Shown here in pieces: positions 1 through 5,069 of a stretch of DNA of 64,000 nucleotides. The notes beneath the pieces were generated by a model. That model was not told the DNA's origin. It saw only the letters and a list, made by a program, of their open reading frames with translations, and made no database searches. Both the position numbers and the translations under genes were made by a program. How positions within the stretch are numbered: position 1 is the stretch's first letter; every line of letters begins with the position of its first letter. This stretch comes from Streptomyces sp. MJM8645 (GTDB lineage Bacteria; Actinomycetota; Actinomycetes; Streptomycetales; Streptomycetaceae): NCBI RefSeq assembly GCF_001625365.1, contig NZ_LJJF01000001.1, forward strand, positions 4,289,001-4,353,000. The letters run 5' to 3'.

Positions 1-671
1 TGGACTACGAGCTCAAGCCCCGCGAGTACGAGCTGAGCGTCGCGCAGACCATCCTCAAGGTGCACTCCCGCGTCGCCGACCTCTACAACCAGCCGATGAA
101 CCAGACCGAGCACCAGCTCCGGCTGACCATCGAGGCGCTGCGCGAGCGCCAGGAACACGAGCTCGTCAACAACCCCGAGTTCGGCCTGCTGGAGAACGCC
201 GCGTACGACCAGCGGATCCAGACCCACTCCGGCCCGCCCACCCCCGACGACATGGACGAGCTGCTCAGCCGCCGCCGCGGCACCAAGATGTTCCTCGCCC
301 ACCCCAAGGCCATCGCCGCCTTCGGCCGCGAGTGCAACAAGCGCGGCCTCGTCCCCGGCACGGTCGAGGTCGAGGGCAAGCACGTCACGGCCTGGCGCGG
401 GGTGCCGGTCTTCCCGTGCAACAAGATCCCGGTCATCGGCGGGCACACCAGTTCGATCATGGCGCTGCGCGTCGGCGAGGACAACCAGGGCGTCGTCGGC
501 CTGCACCAGACCGGAATTCCGGACGAGTACCAGCCGAGCCTTTCGGTGCGGTTCATGGGAATCGACGACAAGGCCGTCATTTCCTACCTGGTCAGCGCCT
601 ATTACTCCGCCGCGATTCTGGTCCCGGACGCGGTCGGCGTCCTGGAGAACGTGGACGTCGCGCAGCGCTAG
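1..671 (+). CDS. Family 2 encapsulin shell protein (5' end outside window)
   Basis: This gene encodes the C-terminal part of a family 2 encapsulin, an HK97-fold protein that self-assembles into an icosahedral protein compartment. The frame is open from base 3, so the true start lies left of the window and only about 222 residues are visible. The segment has recognisable family features: the helix with [20 protein letters not shown], the [22 protein letters not shown] region, and the C-terminal [20 protein letters not shown] stretch. Such proteins are often mislabelled as Crp/Fnr-like because family 2B members, including EshA of Streptomyces griseus, carry a cyclic-nucleotide-binding domain; that part cannot be seen here, so 2A versus 2B is inferred only from the neighbour. 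The next gene is a polyprenyl diphosphate synthase, a known cargo class for family 2B shells. I am sure of the family and unsure of the subtype. Confidence 0.88.
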
Positions 672-936
672 GCCCTGTCCGGGCGAGTCTCAACCATTCC
701 GGCCCGGGCGCGCGATATCCGGGCACGCGCCCAGGCCCGGGCACCGGCCGACCGGAGCCGGTCGGAATTCCACGCCGCCCGGCCGGGGCACCCACACCCC
801 GGCCGGGCGGCGCGCCGCGGCACGTCCGGAAAGCGGGCCGGCCGTCGGCCGACCCGGCCACCGACCGGGTCGGCCGACCCACGACCGGCACCTCACACCA
901 GGCCGCCTCACCGCAGGCCGACAGGGGGAGAAACCC
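672..936. other. Encapsulin to cargo intergenic region
   Basis: These 265 bases separate the shell gene from the synthase gene. The synthase frame is open right back through this stretch but has no start codon in it. It holds short GC-rich inverted repeats but no clear terminator, which is compatible with co-transcription. A strong ribosome binding site (GGGGGAG, 6 nt before the ATG) fixes the downstream start at 937. Confidence 0.5.
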
Positions 937-1986
937 ATGACGAGCTCCACACTGGAGCGGGACCACAAAGAGGGGAACGAGGCGGCGGACGTCCTCGCCC
1001 GGGCCCGCAACCTGGTCGACCCGGTCCTGCGGGCCGCCGTCGACTCACTGCCGGGCGCGATGCGCAAGGTCGCCGGCTACCACTTCGGCTGGTGGGAGGC
1101 GGACGGCTCGCCCGCCGACGCCCCCTCCGGCAAGGCGATCCGGCCCGCCATGGTCCTCGCCGCCACCCAGGCACTCGGCGGCACGACCGCCGAGGCCACC
1201 GCCGCGGCCGCCGCCGTCGAGCTGGTGCACAACTTCACGCTGCTCCACGACGACGTCATCGACCGGGACGAGACGCGCCGCCACCGGCCCACCGCCTGGC
1301 GGGTGTTCGGCACCACCGAGGCCATCCTGGCCGGGGACGCCATGCACTCGCTGGCGCTGCGCCTGCTCGCCGAGGACGCCCACCCGGCCGCCCGGAGCTC
1401 GGTCCGCCGGCTCACCGACTGCGTGGTCGAGCTGTGCGAGGGCCAGCAGATCGACTGCGCCTTCGAGCAGCGCAGCGACGTCTCGCTCGCCGAGTGCCTG
1501 GCGATGGCGGAGGCCAAGACCGGCGCCCTGCTCGGCGCCGCCTGCGCGATGGGCGCCCTGTACGGCGGCGGGTCGGAGGAGGCCGCGCAGGCGATGGACG
1601 GCTTCGGCCGGGAGATCGGCCTGGCGTTCCAGCTGATCGACGACCTGATCGGCATCTGGGGCGATCCGGCGGTGACCGGCAAGCCGGTGGGCGCGGACCT
1701 GGTCGCCCGGAAGAAGTCGCTGCCGGTGGTCGCGGCGCTGGGCTCCGGCACCCCCGAGGGGGCCCGGCTCGCCGGGCTGTACGCCCTCGAACGCCAGCTC
1801 AGCCCTGAGGAGTTGGCGCAGTGCGCGGCGTCCGTCGAAGGCGCCGGCGGCCGCGGCTGGGCGCAGGGCGAGTCCTGCGAGCGGATGGCGGCGGCGATGG
1901 CGCAGCTGGCCACGGCCGTCCCGGAGCCGTCGGCGGCCGACGAACTGCTGGTGCTGGCCGAACTGGTCACCCGCCGCAGCCACTGA
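937..1986 (+). CDS. Polyprenyl diphosphate synthase, likely encapsulin cargo
   Basis: This is a class I trans-isoprenyl diphosphate synthase of 349 residues that would condense isopentenyl diphosphate onto an allylic primer. Both magnesium-binding aspartate motifs are present: DDVID at the first site (about residue 106) and DDLIGIWGD at the second (about residue 233), with the GKAIRP substrate loop near residue 65 and a KK pair after the second motif. The first 20-30 residues (MTSSTLERDHKEGNEAADVL) are polar and look disordered, as expected for a targeting segment, although it is short compared with many encapsulin cargo extensions. A GGGGGAG ribosome binding site precedes the ATG by 6 nt. 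Its position directly after a family 2 shell gene is the basis for calling it cargo; product chain length cannot be read from the sequence. A strong terminator follows at 2055-2089. Confidence 0.85.
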   Translation: MTSSTLERDHKEGNEAADVLARARNLVDPVLRAAVDSLPGAMRKVAGYHFGWWEADGSPADAPSGKAIRPAMVLAATQALGGTTAEATAAAAAVELVHNFTLLHDDVIDRDETRRHRPTAWRVFGTTEAILAGDAMHSLALRLLAEDAHPAARSSVRRLTDCVVELCEGQQIDCAFEQRSDVSLAECLAMAEAKTGALLGAACAMGALYGGGSEEAAQAMDGFGREIGLAFQLIDDLIGIWGDPAVTGKPVGADLVARKKSLPVVAALGSGTPEGARLAGLYALERQLSPEELAQCAASVEGAGGRGWAQGESCERMAAAMAQLATAVPEPSAADELLVLAELVTRRSH

Positions 1987-2054: not shown

Positions 2055-2089
2055 GGAGTGGGAAGTCGGCCGGTCCGACTTCCCACTCC
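2055..2089 (+). terminator. Strong terminator of the encapsulin/synthase unit
   Basis: A perfect 15-bp stem (GGAGTGGGAAGTCGG paired with its complement) closes on the 5-nt loop CCGGT. There is no T-tract, as is usual in high-GC actinobacteria. It separates the encapsulin unit from the DUF1254 genes. The rest of the 300-nt gap (2090-2286) holds a CCCGCACCCG-type low-complexity run and the likely promoter of the next gene. Confidence 0.7.
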
Positions 2090-2286
2090 GGGCCCGGCGC
2101 CCGCACCCGCACCCGTACCCGTGTCAGCGCCGGTAGCTGGTGGCCGGCGGGCGCCCGGGAAGCGTCGGGCCACCCGACATGCTGACCCGCCCCACCCCGC
2201 ATAGCATCCCCTATGTACTCGTATGTCCCGAATTCCGGTGCGCGCCTGCGCCGCCGGCCTTCCGTGCACTGGGGAGAGCGACGAGC

Positions 2287-3636
2287 ATGGCCAACCCGGC
2301 ACTCGTGGACCCGGCCACGATCCGCGCGACCGCCGCCGAGGCCTGGATCCGTGCCTACCCGATCCTGCAGAACTACCGCACCCTGTACGCGCAGGCACTG
2401 GACGACGCGGACCCGGGGTACGTCGGCGGCTTCGGCGTCTTCCGCCACCGCTCGCAGCCGTTCACCCCGGCCGACACCGACGTCGCCTCCCCCGACAACG
2501 ACACCCCGCACTCCTGGGCCTGGCTCGACTTGCGCGCCGAACCGTGGGTGGTGTCCGTCCCGGCCGCGGACCGCTACTACGTCCTCCCGCTGCACGAACT
2601 CGACACCGTGTACGCCGGGTTCGTCGGTGCCCGGAGCACCGGCCAGGAGGCCGGCGACTACCTGGTGGCCGGCCCCGACTGGCAGGGCGATCCCCCGCCC
2701 GGCATCCGGGGCGTGCTCCGCACCGCCACCCGCCTGGTCGGCATCCTCGGCCGCACCCACCTCACCGGCGACACCCCCGCGGACATCGGCGAACTGAAGG
2801 CCGTCCAGCAGCAGTACCGGCTGCGCCCGCTGCACGAGTACGCCGGCACCCCGGCGCCCGCCCCCGCGCCGGAGCCGGTCTGGCCGGTCTGGCGCGAGGA
2901 GGTGCTGGACACCGTCGAGTTCCTCAGCTTCCTCGACTTCCTGCTCGGCTTCTTCCCGCTCCGCGGGCCCGTCGAGCTGCCGCCCGCCGAGGTCGACCTG
3001 CGCGGCCGCCTCACCGACCTCGGCGTCGACGGGCGCGGCGAGTTCGAGCCCGCCACGCTGCCGATCGAGGTCCGGGCCGAGATCGAGCGCGGCATCGCGG
3101 ACGGCCGCGCACGGCTGGAGCGCGCCGCCGCCGAATCCGAACCCACCACCCCGGCCGCACTCTTCGGCACCCGTGAGCGGATCGGCGGGGACTTCCTCCG
3201 CCAGGCCCTCGGCGCCAGGCTCGGCCGCTACGGGCTGCCCACCGAGGAAGTCTGGTGCGGCGGTTGGGCGGCGGACAGCGCGGGCAACCGGCCGCCGAAC
3301 GCCAGCGACCGCGACTACGCCGTCCGCTTCGGCCCGGACGACCTGCCGCCGGCCCGGTACTTCTGGTCCGCCACCATGTACGCGCTCCCGGACCGCCTGC
3401 TGGTCGACAACACCCTGGACCGCTACGCGATCGGCGACCGCACCCCCGGCCTGGTCCGCGACCCGGACGGCGGGCTCACCCTCCACCTCCGGCACAAGCG
3501 GCCCGCCGACGCCCAGCACTCCGCCAACTGGCTGCCCGCCCCGGACGGCCCGTTCACGGTCGTCGTCCGGCTCCACGGCCCGGACCGGTCCGTCCTCGAC
3601 GGCCGCTGGCACCTCCCGCCGCTCGACCCGAGCTGA
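2287..3636 (+). CDS. DUF1254/DUF1214 domain protein, first copy
   Basis: This 449-residue protein has the two-domain architecture of the DUF1254 (N-terminal) and DUF1214 (C-terminal) family, whose biochemical role is not established. Family landmarks are AYPILQNYRTLYAQAL near the N terminus, the SPDNDTPHSWAWLDL strand in DUF1254, and in DUF1214 the sequence FWSATMYALPDRLLVDN followed by RYAIGDRTPGL and NWLPAPDGPFTVVVRL. Many relatives are exported, but no signal peptide is visible here, so a cytoplasmic location is likely. The ATG at 2287 follows GGGGAGAG at good spacing. It is followed, after a repeat-bearing spacer, by a diverged paralogue in the same direction, so the pair probably forms one transcription unit. 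Function unknown. Confidence 0.82.
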   Translation: MANPALVDPATIRATAAEAWIRAYPILQNYRTLYAQALDDADPGYVGGFGVFRHRSQPFTPADTDVASPDNDTPHSWAWLDLRAEPWVVSVPAADRYYVLPLHELDTVYAGFVGARSTGQEAGDYLVAGPDWQGDPPPGIRGVLRTATRLVGILGRTHLTGDTPADIGELKAVQQQYRLRPLHEYAGTPAPAPAPEPVWPVWREEVLDTVEFLSFLDFLLGFFPLRGPVELPPAEVDLRGRLTDLGVDGRGEFEPATLPIEVRAEIERGIADGRARLERAAAESEPTTPAALFGTRERIGGDFLRQALGARLGRYGLPTEEVWCGGWAADSAGNRPPNASDRDYAVRFGPDDLPPARYFWSATMYALPDRLLVDNTLDRYAIGDRTPGLVRDPDGGLTLHLRHKRPADAQHSANWLPAPDGPFTVVVRLHGPDRSVLDGRWHLPPLDPS

Positions 3637-3655
3637 CCCGAGCTGACCCGCAGCG

Positions 3656-3710
3656 CAGAAATCCGCACCGCAGAAATCCGCACCGCAGGGATCCGCACCG
3701 CAGAGACCGC
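3656..3710. repeat. 15-bp tandem repeats between DUF1254 genes
   Basis: The unit CAGAAATCCGCACCG occurs twice exactly, once as CAGGGATCCGCACCG, and then as a partial copy. It lies in the 98-nt spacer between the two DUF1254 genes, just after a 10-bp direct repeat (AGCTGACCCG twice) that covers the first gene's stop codon. Confidence 0.7.
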
Positions 3711-3734
3711 GCCGACCGGACGAAGGACACCCCG

Positions 3735-5069
3735 ATGAACCACCCCGAGCTGGAGGCCCTGGCCGCCGACGCCTACGTCTACGGCTACCCGATCGTCGCC
3801 GACCTCACCATGGTCGAGCGCTTCTCCCGGGGCGGCCTGGGCACCCTGCCGGCGGCGTCGTTCAACCACTTCAGCCACGCCACCCGGCTGGCCGGGCCCA
3901 AGGACCACTTCGTCTCGGTCAACAACGACACCCTCTACTCGATCGCCCAGCTCGACCTCTCCGAGGGCCCGCAGGTGCTGCGCGTCCCGGACACCGCGGG
4001 CGCCTACTACGTGCTGCAGGTCGTCGGCGCGTGGACGGACAACGTCGCCTACGTCGGCAGCCGTGCCACCGGCACCGGCGAGCAGACCTGGCTGATCGTC
4101 CCGCCCGGCTGGCACGGCACCCCGTCCGACCCGGCCCGGGTGATCGAGGCGCCGACCACGGTGGCGACCATCGTCGGCCGCTTCGCCTGCACCGGGCCGG
4201 ACGACCTCCGCCGGGTCAAGGCCCTCCAGAAGGCCCTCACCCTGGAGCCGCTGGAGCCCGGCGGGCTGGTCGCCGGACTGCCCGAGCCCGATCCGGAGGT
4301 GCCCGAGCGGCTGGCCTTCTTCGAACGGCTTCGGGTCTGGATGCAGGCCTTCCCACCGGCCGGTCCGGACGTCGAGTACCAGCAGCGCTTCGCCCCGCTC
4401 GGCCTGCTCGACGAGGGCACCTCGCCGTACCGTGCGGCCGCCGCGGACTGGACCCTCGCGCTGGCCAAGGGCCTGGCCGCAGGCCGCGAACGGGTCGAGG
4501 ACGCCACCCGCCCGCCCGAGGACCACCCGCCCGGCGAGTGGCGCTCGGCGCTCCACCTGTTCGACTACAACATCGACCACCTGGGCCCCGGCACCCTCGA
4601 CGACCCCGAGTGGCGCATCCCCGACCGCCGCGCCGGCTACCTCAGCCGGGCCGCCGCCGCCCGGGCCGGCCTCTGGGGCAACCACGCCTACGAGGCCTCG
4701 TTCGCGATGACCTACGACGACTCCGGCGGCCGCCCGCTCAGCGGCGCGCACCGCTACACGCTGCGGTTCGACCAGCCACCGCCGGCCGAGGCGTTCTGGT
4801 CCGTCACGATGTACGCGCTGCCGGACTACTACCTGGTGGACAACCCGATCGAGCGCTACACGATCGGCGACCGCACCCCGGGCCTGGTGTACGGCGCGGA
4901 CGGCTCGCTCACCCTGACGCTCCAGCACGAGCAGCCCGAGGACGAGGTGGAGGCGGCCAACTGGCTGCCCGCCCCGGTCGGCGAGTTCCGGCCGATCATC
5001 CGGCTCTACCAGCCGAAGCCGGCCGTGCTGGACGGCAGTTACCGGGTGCCGCCGATCGACCGGAGCTGA
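3735..5069 (+). CDS. DUF1254/DUF1214 domain protein, second copy
   Basis: This 444-residue protein is a paralogue of the preceding gene with the same DUF1254 plus DUF1214 layout. It shows DAYVYGYPIVADLTMVERF at the N terminus, the DHFVSVNNDTLYSIAQLDL core of DUF1254, and a DUF1214 end with AFWSVTMYALPDYYLVDNP, RYTIGDRTPGLVY and NWLPAPVGEF. Its N-terminal half is closer to the common DUF1254 consensus than that of the first copy. There is no signal peptide. The ATG is preceded by AAGGA. It ends 45 nt from the convergent sigma/BACON gene. Tandem duplication and divergence is the simplest reading of the pair; function unknown. Confidence 0.82.
   Translation: MNHPELEALAADAYVYGYPIVADLTMVERFSRGGLGTLPAASFNHFSHATRLAGPKDHFVSVNNDTLYSIAQLDLSEGPQVLRVPDTAGAYYVLQVVGAWTDNVAYVGSRATGTGEQTWLIVPPGWHGTPSDPARVIEAPTTVATIVGRFACTGPDDLRRVKALQKALTLEPLEPGGLVAGLPEPDPEVPERLAFFERLRVWMQAFPPAGPDVEYQQRFAPLGLLDEGTSPYRAAAADWTLALAKGLAAGRERVEDATRPPEDHPPGEWRSALHLFDYNIDHLGPGTLDDPEWRIPDRRAGYLSRAAAARAGLWGNHAYEASFAMTYDDSGGRPLSGAHRYTLRFDQPPPAEAFWSVTMYALPDYYLVDNPIERYTIGDRTPGLVYGADGSLTLTLQHEQPEDEVEAANWLPAPVGEFRPIIRLYQPKPAVLDGSYRVPPIDRS

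Follow-up and report, generated by a model that had tools for sequence, protein, structure and literature searches.

At the left edge of the analyzed stretch of DNA (the window; 64,000 nucleotides, G000:C1:4289001-4353000, within a 9.2-Mb genome), a shell gene cut by the boundary is followed by a gene for a polyprenyl diphosphate synthase (PT). The question raised by this locus is whether the two genes encode a compartment in which an isoprenoid enzyme is enclosed, how such a compartment would be regulated and loaded, and whether it is a new kind of system.

The shell and synthase genes

The frame that is open at the window edge was assigned in the earlier note to the C-terminal 220 or so residues of a family 2 encapsulin, and the assignment holds for the complete gene, which was read by extending the sequence to the left as the note had proposed (Table 1). 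An alignment of 23 shells places the conserved start at M17 (L003:8250, window -750). The shell scored 761.8 bits against the NCBIfam model NF041163 (encap_f2b, cut-off 400) and 466 bits against PF19307 in a profile search. The family 2B model covers residues 39-487 in one piece, and the cyclic-nucleotide-binding (cNMP) fold that was to be sought in the extended protein is present as an insertion in the E-loop (PF00027, residues 136-223, 54.7 bits), with the SrpI-like part (residues 239-487) coming after it. The closest solved shells are 9bix (645 bits), 9bhu (640 bits) and 9bje, the match to 9bhu bearing out the suggested kinship to EshA of S. griseus. By its family score and its match to 9bix the protein is an HK97-type Family 2 shell, and its identity to the solved structures suggests that it would assemble into an icosahedral shell. 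Its motif 1 reads SRRRGTK, the RRR type found in Enc2, and the shell is probably of Enc2 type. An AlphaFold model of the shell was poor (pLDDT 51.5) and was left out of all readings.

Table 1. Coordinates of the features discussed in the text.
Feature	Position	Strand	Description
Shell, C-terminal part	window 3..671 (listed as 1..671)	+	222 residues; frame open from window edge
Full shell gene	L003:8202-9671 = window -798..671	+	489 codons; first ATG at -798
First gap hairpin	773..812	+	perfect 16-bp stem, 8-nt loop, no T-run
Second gap hairpin	844..878	+	perfect 14-bp stem, 7-nt loop
PT, putative cargo	window 937..1986	+	349 aa; NF041169, PF00348
Hairpin 3' of PT	2055..2089	+	15-bp stem, 5-nt loop, no T-run
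Tandem DUF1254/DUF1214 proteins	window ORFs 2140-3636 and 3255-5069		downstream of PT
Second Family 2B shell of the genome	L004:8896-10410 (G000:C1, about 7.10 Mb)		2.8 Mb from the locus

Exactly 265 nt (window 672..936) separate the shell gene from the PT gene, which lies on the same strand, in agreement with the earlier note. The product of the PT gene scored 498.2 bits against NF041169 (f2_encap_cargo4, family 2 encapsulin cargo polyprenyl transferase, cut-off 450), which places it in the published cargo family of class I polyprenyl synthases; with both models over their cut-offs, the reading of a 2B shell with a PT as putative cargo is upheld. The PT also scored 207.6 bits against PF00348 and 382 bits against the IdsB model, under that model's cut-off of 475, and the best-matching named record is from Kitasatospora (95% identity). 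At its first Asp motif the PT has DDVID (105-109); at the second it has DDLIG (235-239), with D235, D236 and G239 invariant in 43 sequences, so only the first fits the DDxxD pattern that had been ascribed to both.

We also examined the N terminus of the PT, on which loading might depend. In the portion of PMC8346489 that deals with these enzymes, PTs of such operons begin with disordered domains that are 50-100 residues long and share no motif, described as a general trait and not as a criterion of the family. The PT of the window has no such domain. In its predicted structure, built on a 43-sequence alignment (pLDDT 91.9), the only stretch below 50 is residues 1-11 and the first helix spans residues 4 to 36; the polar character that had been noticed at this end is real, the modeled disorder being limited to those 11 residues. 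The distance from the start codon to the YHFGW motif, with start codons picked by script, has a median of 47 residues in shell-linked PTs (n=84) and 44 in unlinked PTs (n=52), in a set of 141 unique PTs drawn from 147 rows (L071 and L199 skipped; L005-L034, 13 hand-listed duplicate or weak loci, and matches of <230 residues or <40% identity already excluded before this step). Because there is no extra N-terminal domain, the deletion of residues 1-30 that had been suggested as a packaging test would cut into the catalytic fold, a correction relevant to the design of any cargo-loading test. The missing domain lowers the standing of this PT as a typical PT cargo, and its filing there rests on the family model and on adjacency. 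The sequence EG(H/N)EAA at residues 12-17 was considered as a targeting motif and rejected: it seemed specific to the shell-linked PTs of the window's family, but it is absent from shell-linked PTs of other families, and unlinked PTs of the genus g18 have a similar helix start (AADVLARTR).

The solved fold nearest to the PT model in a Foldseek search was 3nf2 of S. coelicolor (TM 0.91 by query), and the matches were ordinary prenyl synthases. In these enzymes chain length can be predicted from the residues just before the first Asp motif and from a two-residue insertion. Because aromatic F100 lies five places ahead of DDVID, with T101 at -4 and no two-residue insertion, the predicted product is most likely C20 geranylgeranyl diphosphate (GGPP); our search for a PT of the window clade with a known product returned none. 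Elsewhere in the genome there are separate prenyl synthase genes, at L145 within a squalene-hopene cluster and at L146 next to an amine-oxidase/desaturase-like gene.

Conservation and history of the pairing

All 70 genomes of the genus contain at least one Family 2B shell over the cut-off and 67 contain a PT over the cut-off. A shell lies directly upstream of the PT on the same strand in 65 of these 67 (63 by coordinates, G011 via locus L034 and G027 via L138). Because the shell is adjacent in so many genomes, the pairing is not chance, and with the 265-nt gap it places the PT, like published PT cargo, next to its shell. The remaining two genomes are G047, in which the locus is interrupted by contig ends, and G029, which has no shell there. 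Genome G010 has no PT over the cut-off and its shells sit in other surroundings; G003 likewise has none over the cut-off, its shell and PT being at contig ends. In G022 (L144 4827-7430) a PT lies next to the shell with its match split over two frames, which is either a broken gene or a sequencing error.

The shell-less genome G029 belongs to Kitasatospora sp. MBT63 (locus L059 = L142; L059:4000-6100). Its PT is intact and 79% identical to that of the window, no shell is found between the ATP-grasp gene and the PT, and the best shell elsewhere in the genome is 67% identical. The shell's upstream element now lies 436 nt before the start of the intact PT. Since this lineage keeps an intact PT with no shell adjacent, the PT may work free.

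In many Kitasatospora loci the pair is preceded by ATP-grasp and MGMT genes and followed by the DUF1254/DUF1214 pair. None of these genes was found within 6 kb on each side of Streptomyces-type loci, and because of this absence the DUF1254/DUF1214 pair, considered as a part of the system, is read instead as chromosomal synteny.

Among 296 genomes sampled from the class, 37 contain a PT over the cut-off. Forty PT stretches were chosen from the class list, nearly all of them outside the window's family, and ten are shell-linked; these belong to families f17 and f46, and seven of them are preceded by two shells. Against the cargo model (cut-off 450), four unlinked PTs of genus g18 scored 436-464 bits; their shells are elsewhere in the genome. 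A single clade of shell-linked PTs was rejected by an AU test (p 0.0055) on 74 of the 141 PTs, selected by manual thinning, with the shell-less L059 placed among the shell-linked ones; because the test came after a look at the FastTree tree of the PTs, its p value is softer than printed. The PT tree needs five changes of linkage, three of them forced by well-supported branches, and in this tree gain and loss of linkage are indistinguishable.

Shells were compared in a FastTree tree of 109 shells and 3 solved ones, read without branch supports (149 stretches, less 9 with an internal stop, then 109 unique sequences of at least 440 residues). The window shell (row L001) clusters with shells that directly precede PTs, and the EshA clade is nested within the streptomycete PT-linked shells. 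Five upstream shells of two-shell PT loci are in the tree; motif 1 is of the VWK kind in four and unreadable by the pattern in one. The PT-proximal shells L173 and L174, from another family, group with an upstream-type shell, which argues against a tidy split into types. The second Family 2B shell of the genome is its only other PF19307 match, is also over the Family 2B cut-off and falls in the EshA clade (772 bits to 9bhu; 212/254 identical in the HK97 part). No PT match was found within the surrounding 19 kb.

Two further observations concern terpene synthases. The match nearest to the second shell is about 27 kb off (G000:C1:7132789), and in another actinobacterial family, f18, the Family 2B shells at L209:644-2887 and L212:5492-7738 adjoin two-domain terpene synthases (PF19086 twice).

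The upstream palindrome and the hairpins

The Group I consensus of BldM, as given in an excerpt of PMC4125116, is the 16-bp palindrome TCACcCgnncGgGTGA, and the site upstream of the window's own shell gene, CCACTCGAATGAGTGA at window -855 to -840, scores 9.5 of 12 against it. Of the evaluable Kitasatospora/Streptantibioticus-group loci, 36 of 37 have a BldM-like palindrome scoring at least 9.5, located between -90 and -131 relative to the shell start; at this score, 0 of the 39 evaluable Streptomyces-type loci have one (37 of 41 and 39 of 41 loci evaluable, both groups drawn up by hand); a BldM-like site was found in 12 of 218 control upstream windows. Because the operator is absent from the 39 Streptomyces-type loci, BldM control is not general, and data from S. 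coelicolor transfer only loosely. The pattern YCACYCGNNNGRGTGA occurs 34 times in the genome, counted by strand, versus 2 times for a reversed control pattern. A site at shuffle p <=0.01 precedes 34 of 92 PT-linked shell starts and also 8 of 34 shell starts with no detected PT, EshA-type and other shells among them (the 34 include two whose PT is lost at a contig end); a site of this score is thus not exclusive to PT-linked shells.

In S. coelicolor we take eshB to be the PT-linked shell, with SCO5250 presumably its neighboring prenyl synthase. The excerpts at hand describe a developmentally up-regulated promoter for eshB (SCO5249; PMC3878966) and a 4.4-fold increase of SCO5250 on glucose (PMC7494193). 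A literature search for BldM together with eshB returned no paper. The palindrome was also seen at other places in the window's genome. At L232:1637 and 1794 two BldM-like palindromes, one of them a match to YCACYCGNNNGRGTGA and the other weaker, lie upstream of a WhiB-family gene, which we take to be wblA, next to an ArsA-type ATPase gene. The similar stretches at L233:2018 and L234:2063 (G000 contig C2) have the same palindrome beside similar minus-strand ORFs and possibly represent a duplicated gene.

The earlier note had described a strong terminator shared by the two genes. A hairpin is located behind the PT and likely marks the end of the transcription unit, but it lacks a T-run, and two more stems lie between the genes (Table 1), which argues against a simple operon with one shared terminator. 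The 16-bp stem was reached in 0 of 60 mononucleotide shuffles of the locus's own gap. A scan for T-tail terminators found none on the locus strand, and no TANNNT box was found in the gap. We interpret the two gap hairpins as terminating or attenuating transcription downstream of the shell gene; some other type of promoter may also be present.

Of 42 shell-to-PT gaps (both genes passing the gene finder, gap 60-450 nt), 23 contain a perfect stem of at least 9 bp; among other same-strand gaps the count is 13 of 107 (Fisher p 2e-7, with no correction for relatedness). The corresponding counts are 10 of 88 for divergent gaps and 19 of 44 for convergent gaps, the latter giving a Fisher p of 0.39 versus the shell-to-PT gaps. 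The 19 of 42 shell-PT gaps with no 9-bp stem count against the terminator reading. A usable gap was present in 73 of 81 loci, 43 with a stem of at least 9 bp and 41 with a shuffle fraction <=0.05. For the ten shell-linked PTs of f17 and f46 the gap, taken up to the first PT residue in the alignment, is 0-111 nt long, and its stems do not exceed 6 bp. A 268-nt query from the gap (L003:9669-9936) matched only short pieces in 20 relatives, indicating that it is the hairpin that recurs in the gap and not the sequence.

Working of the locus and comparison with known systems

Intact genes for a shell and a class I (all-trans) synthase are kept together at this locus, with a BldM-type palindrome upstream and hairpins between them. 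We consider it probable that the locus, which lies in a streptomycete of the Kitasatospora group, is an ordinary Family 2B encapsulin locus of the PT type and works in the following manner. The Enc2-type shell would form an icosahedral particle with its cNMP-fold domains outside, at the two-fold pores. Shell would be made in excess over PT because most transcripts would end at, or be trimmed to, the hairpins behind the shell gene. PT dimers would be enclosed during assembly by way of a surface or a roughly 15-residue tail, not by a long disordered domain, and the enclosed enzyme would make a short-chain isoprenoid diphosphate, most likely C20. The compartment would be switched on at aerial growth and sporulation. 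A more far-reaching proposal, which we make tentatively and hold to be rather doubtful, is that the Kitasatospora group has a sporulation-timed isoprenoid compartment in which BldM switches the shell promoter, the hairpins hold the PT at a low, fixed ratio and loading proceeds with no disordered domain; PT and shell would have come together repeatedly in actinobacteria, and in one lineage they would have become unpaired, with the promoter kept for the enzyme.

The PT could instead be free in the cytosol and the shell empty or filled with other cargo, the two proteins being neighbors whose genes stay together because a regulatory region is common to both. The adjacency kept across the genus speaks against this account, as does the linkage in f17 and f46, where seven of ten PTs stand behind two shells, and the excerpt of PMC8346489 assigns the PTs of 900 operons as cargo. 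Points that speak for a free enzyme are the intact PT of MBT63 behind the shell's former upstream region, the lack of an N-terminal extension, the hairpins that set the two genes apart and the unlinked g18 PTs close to the cargo model; in the related eshA-mib operon, moreover, eshA was not needed for 2-MIB synthesis, according to the part of PMC6428758 that treats it. On this evidence we regard a free PT as unlikely, and prefer the reading in which the enzyme is packaged. Co-assembly of the locus shell with the genome's second Family 2B shell into mixed particles appears very improbable. Mixed shells are on record for S. lydicus in an excerpt of PMC12407261, PT loci of other families have two shells side by side, and the two shells of this genome, both over the cut-off, are identical at 316 of 471 aligned residues; but the second shell is of the EshA clade and has an RRR motif 1 like the first, not the TVWK of S. 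lydicus Enc1, and the eshA of S. venezuelae sits in an operon with 2-MIB genes in the excerpt of PMC6428758.

We give scarcely any credence to a gated compartment, opened by cAMP or another cyclic nucleotide on the insertion domain, even though a PF00027 domain is present. At the positions that we take, by comparison with CRP, to be those of the phosphate-binding cassette, 23 shells have R in 11, K in 10 and T in 2 at the presumed Arg, and Asp in 22 and Glu in 1 at the presumed Glu; the Glu and Arg of the cassette are thus not conserved at the assigned positions, and binding of a cyclic nucleotide is unlikely. The relevant part of PMC12407261 also describes the Family 2B insertion domain as non-binding, with diverged binding residues.

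The locus falls among systems already described. The earlier note had put it forward as a candidate for an undescribed system, which does not hold: an excerpt of PMC8346489 (2021) reports 900 Family 2B operons that include a polyprenyl transferase, 888 of which are from Actinobacteria, and NCBIfam has models naming both shell and cargo, so the locus belongs to a published kind. Nearly all genomes of the genus carry the pair, and its kind is catalogued in many actinobacteria. A literature search at the level of titles and the starts of abstracts, with subscription journals largely outside its scope, returned no experiments on a PT-type compartment. What is new here is detail on regulation, evolution and packaging rather than a new system. 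The operator, the hairpins between the genes and the shell-less relative provide entry points to the timing of the compartment, the amount of cargo and the enzyme's need for a shell.

Among the known systems, the PT-type Family 2B operons (PMC8346489; NF041163 with NF041169) are alike in having both families over the cut-offs, the PT beside the shell and the same phylum; the window locus differs in lacking the disordered domain and in having hairpins between the genes, and it has a single shell whereas PT loci of some other families have two. The EshA/2-methylisoborneol encapsulin of S. griseus (9bhu) is of the same shell family, 188/249 residues in the HK97 part being identical to the window shell, but its partner is a 2-MIB synthase and not a prenyl diphosphate synthase, and the two shells fall in different tree clades. 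Two-component Family 2B shells, with diagnostic motifs for Enc1 and Enc2, are described in an excerpt of PMC12407261, in which S. lydicus Enc1, and not Enc2, is unable to form shells alone. The window shell resembles Enc2 of that system (9bix; 178/246 in the HK97 part, RRR) rather than Enc1 (9bje). Unlike that system, which in S. lydicus belongs to the xylulose kinase type, the window locus holds one shell gene; its operon has no further shell gene of the other type, and the neighbors encode ATP-grasp and DUF1254/DUF1214 proteins. The PT has the same fold as the IdsB-type GGPP synthases and the S. coelicolor polyprenyl synthetase 3nf2 (45% identity), and differs from the IdsB-type enzymes in scoring below their model's cut-off and in being linked to a shell.
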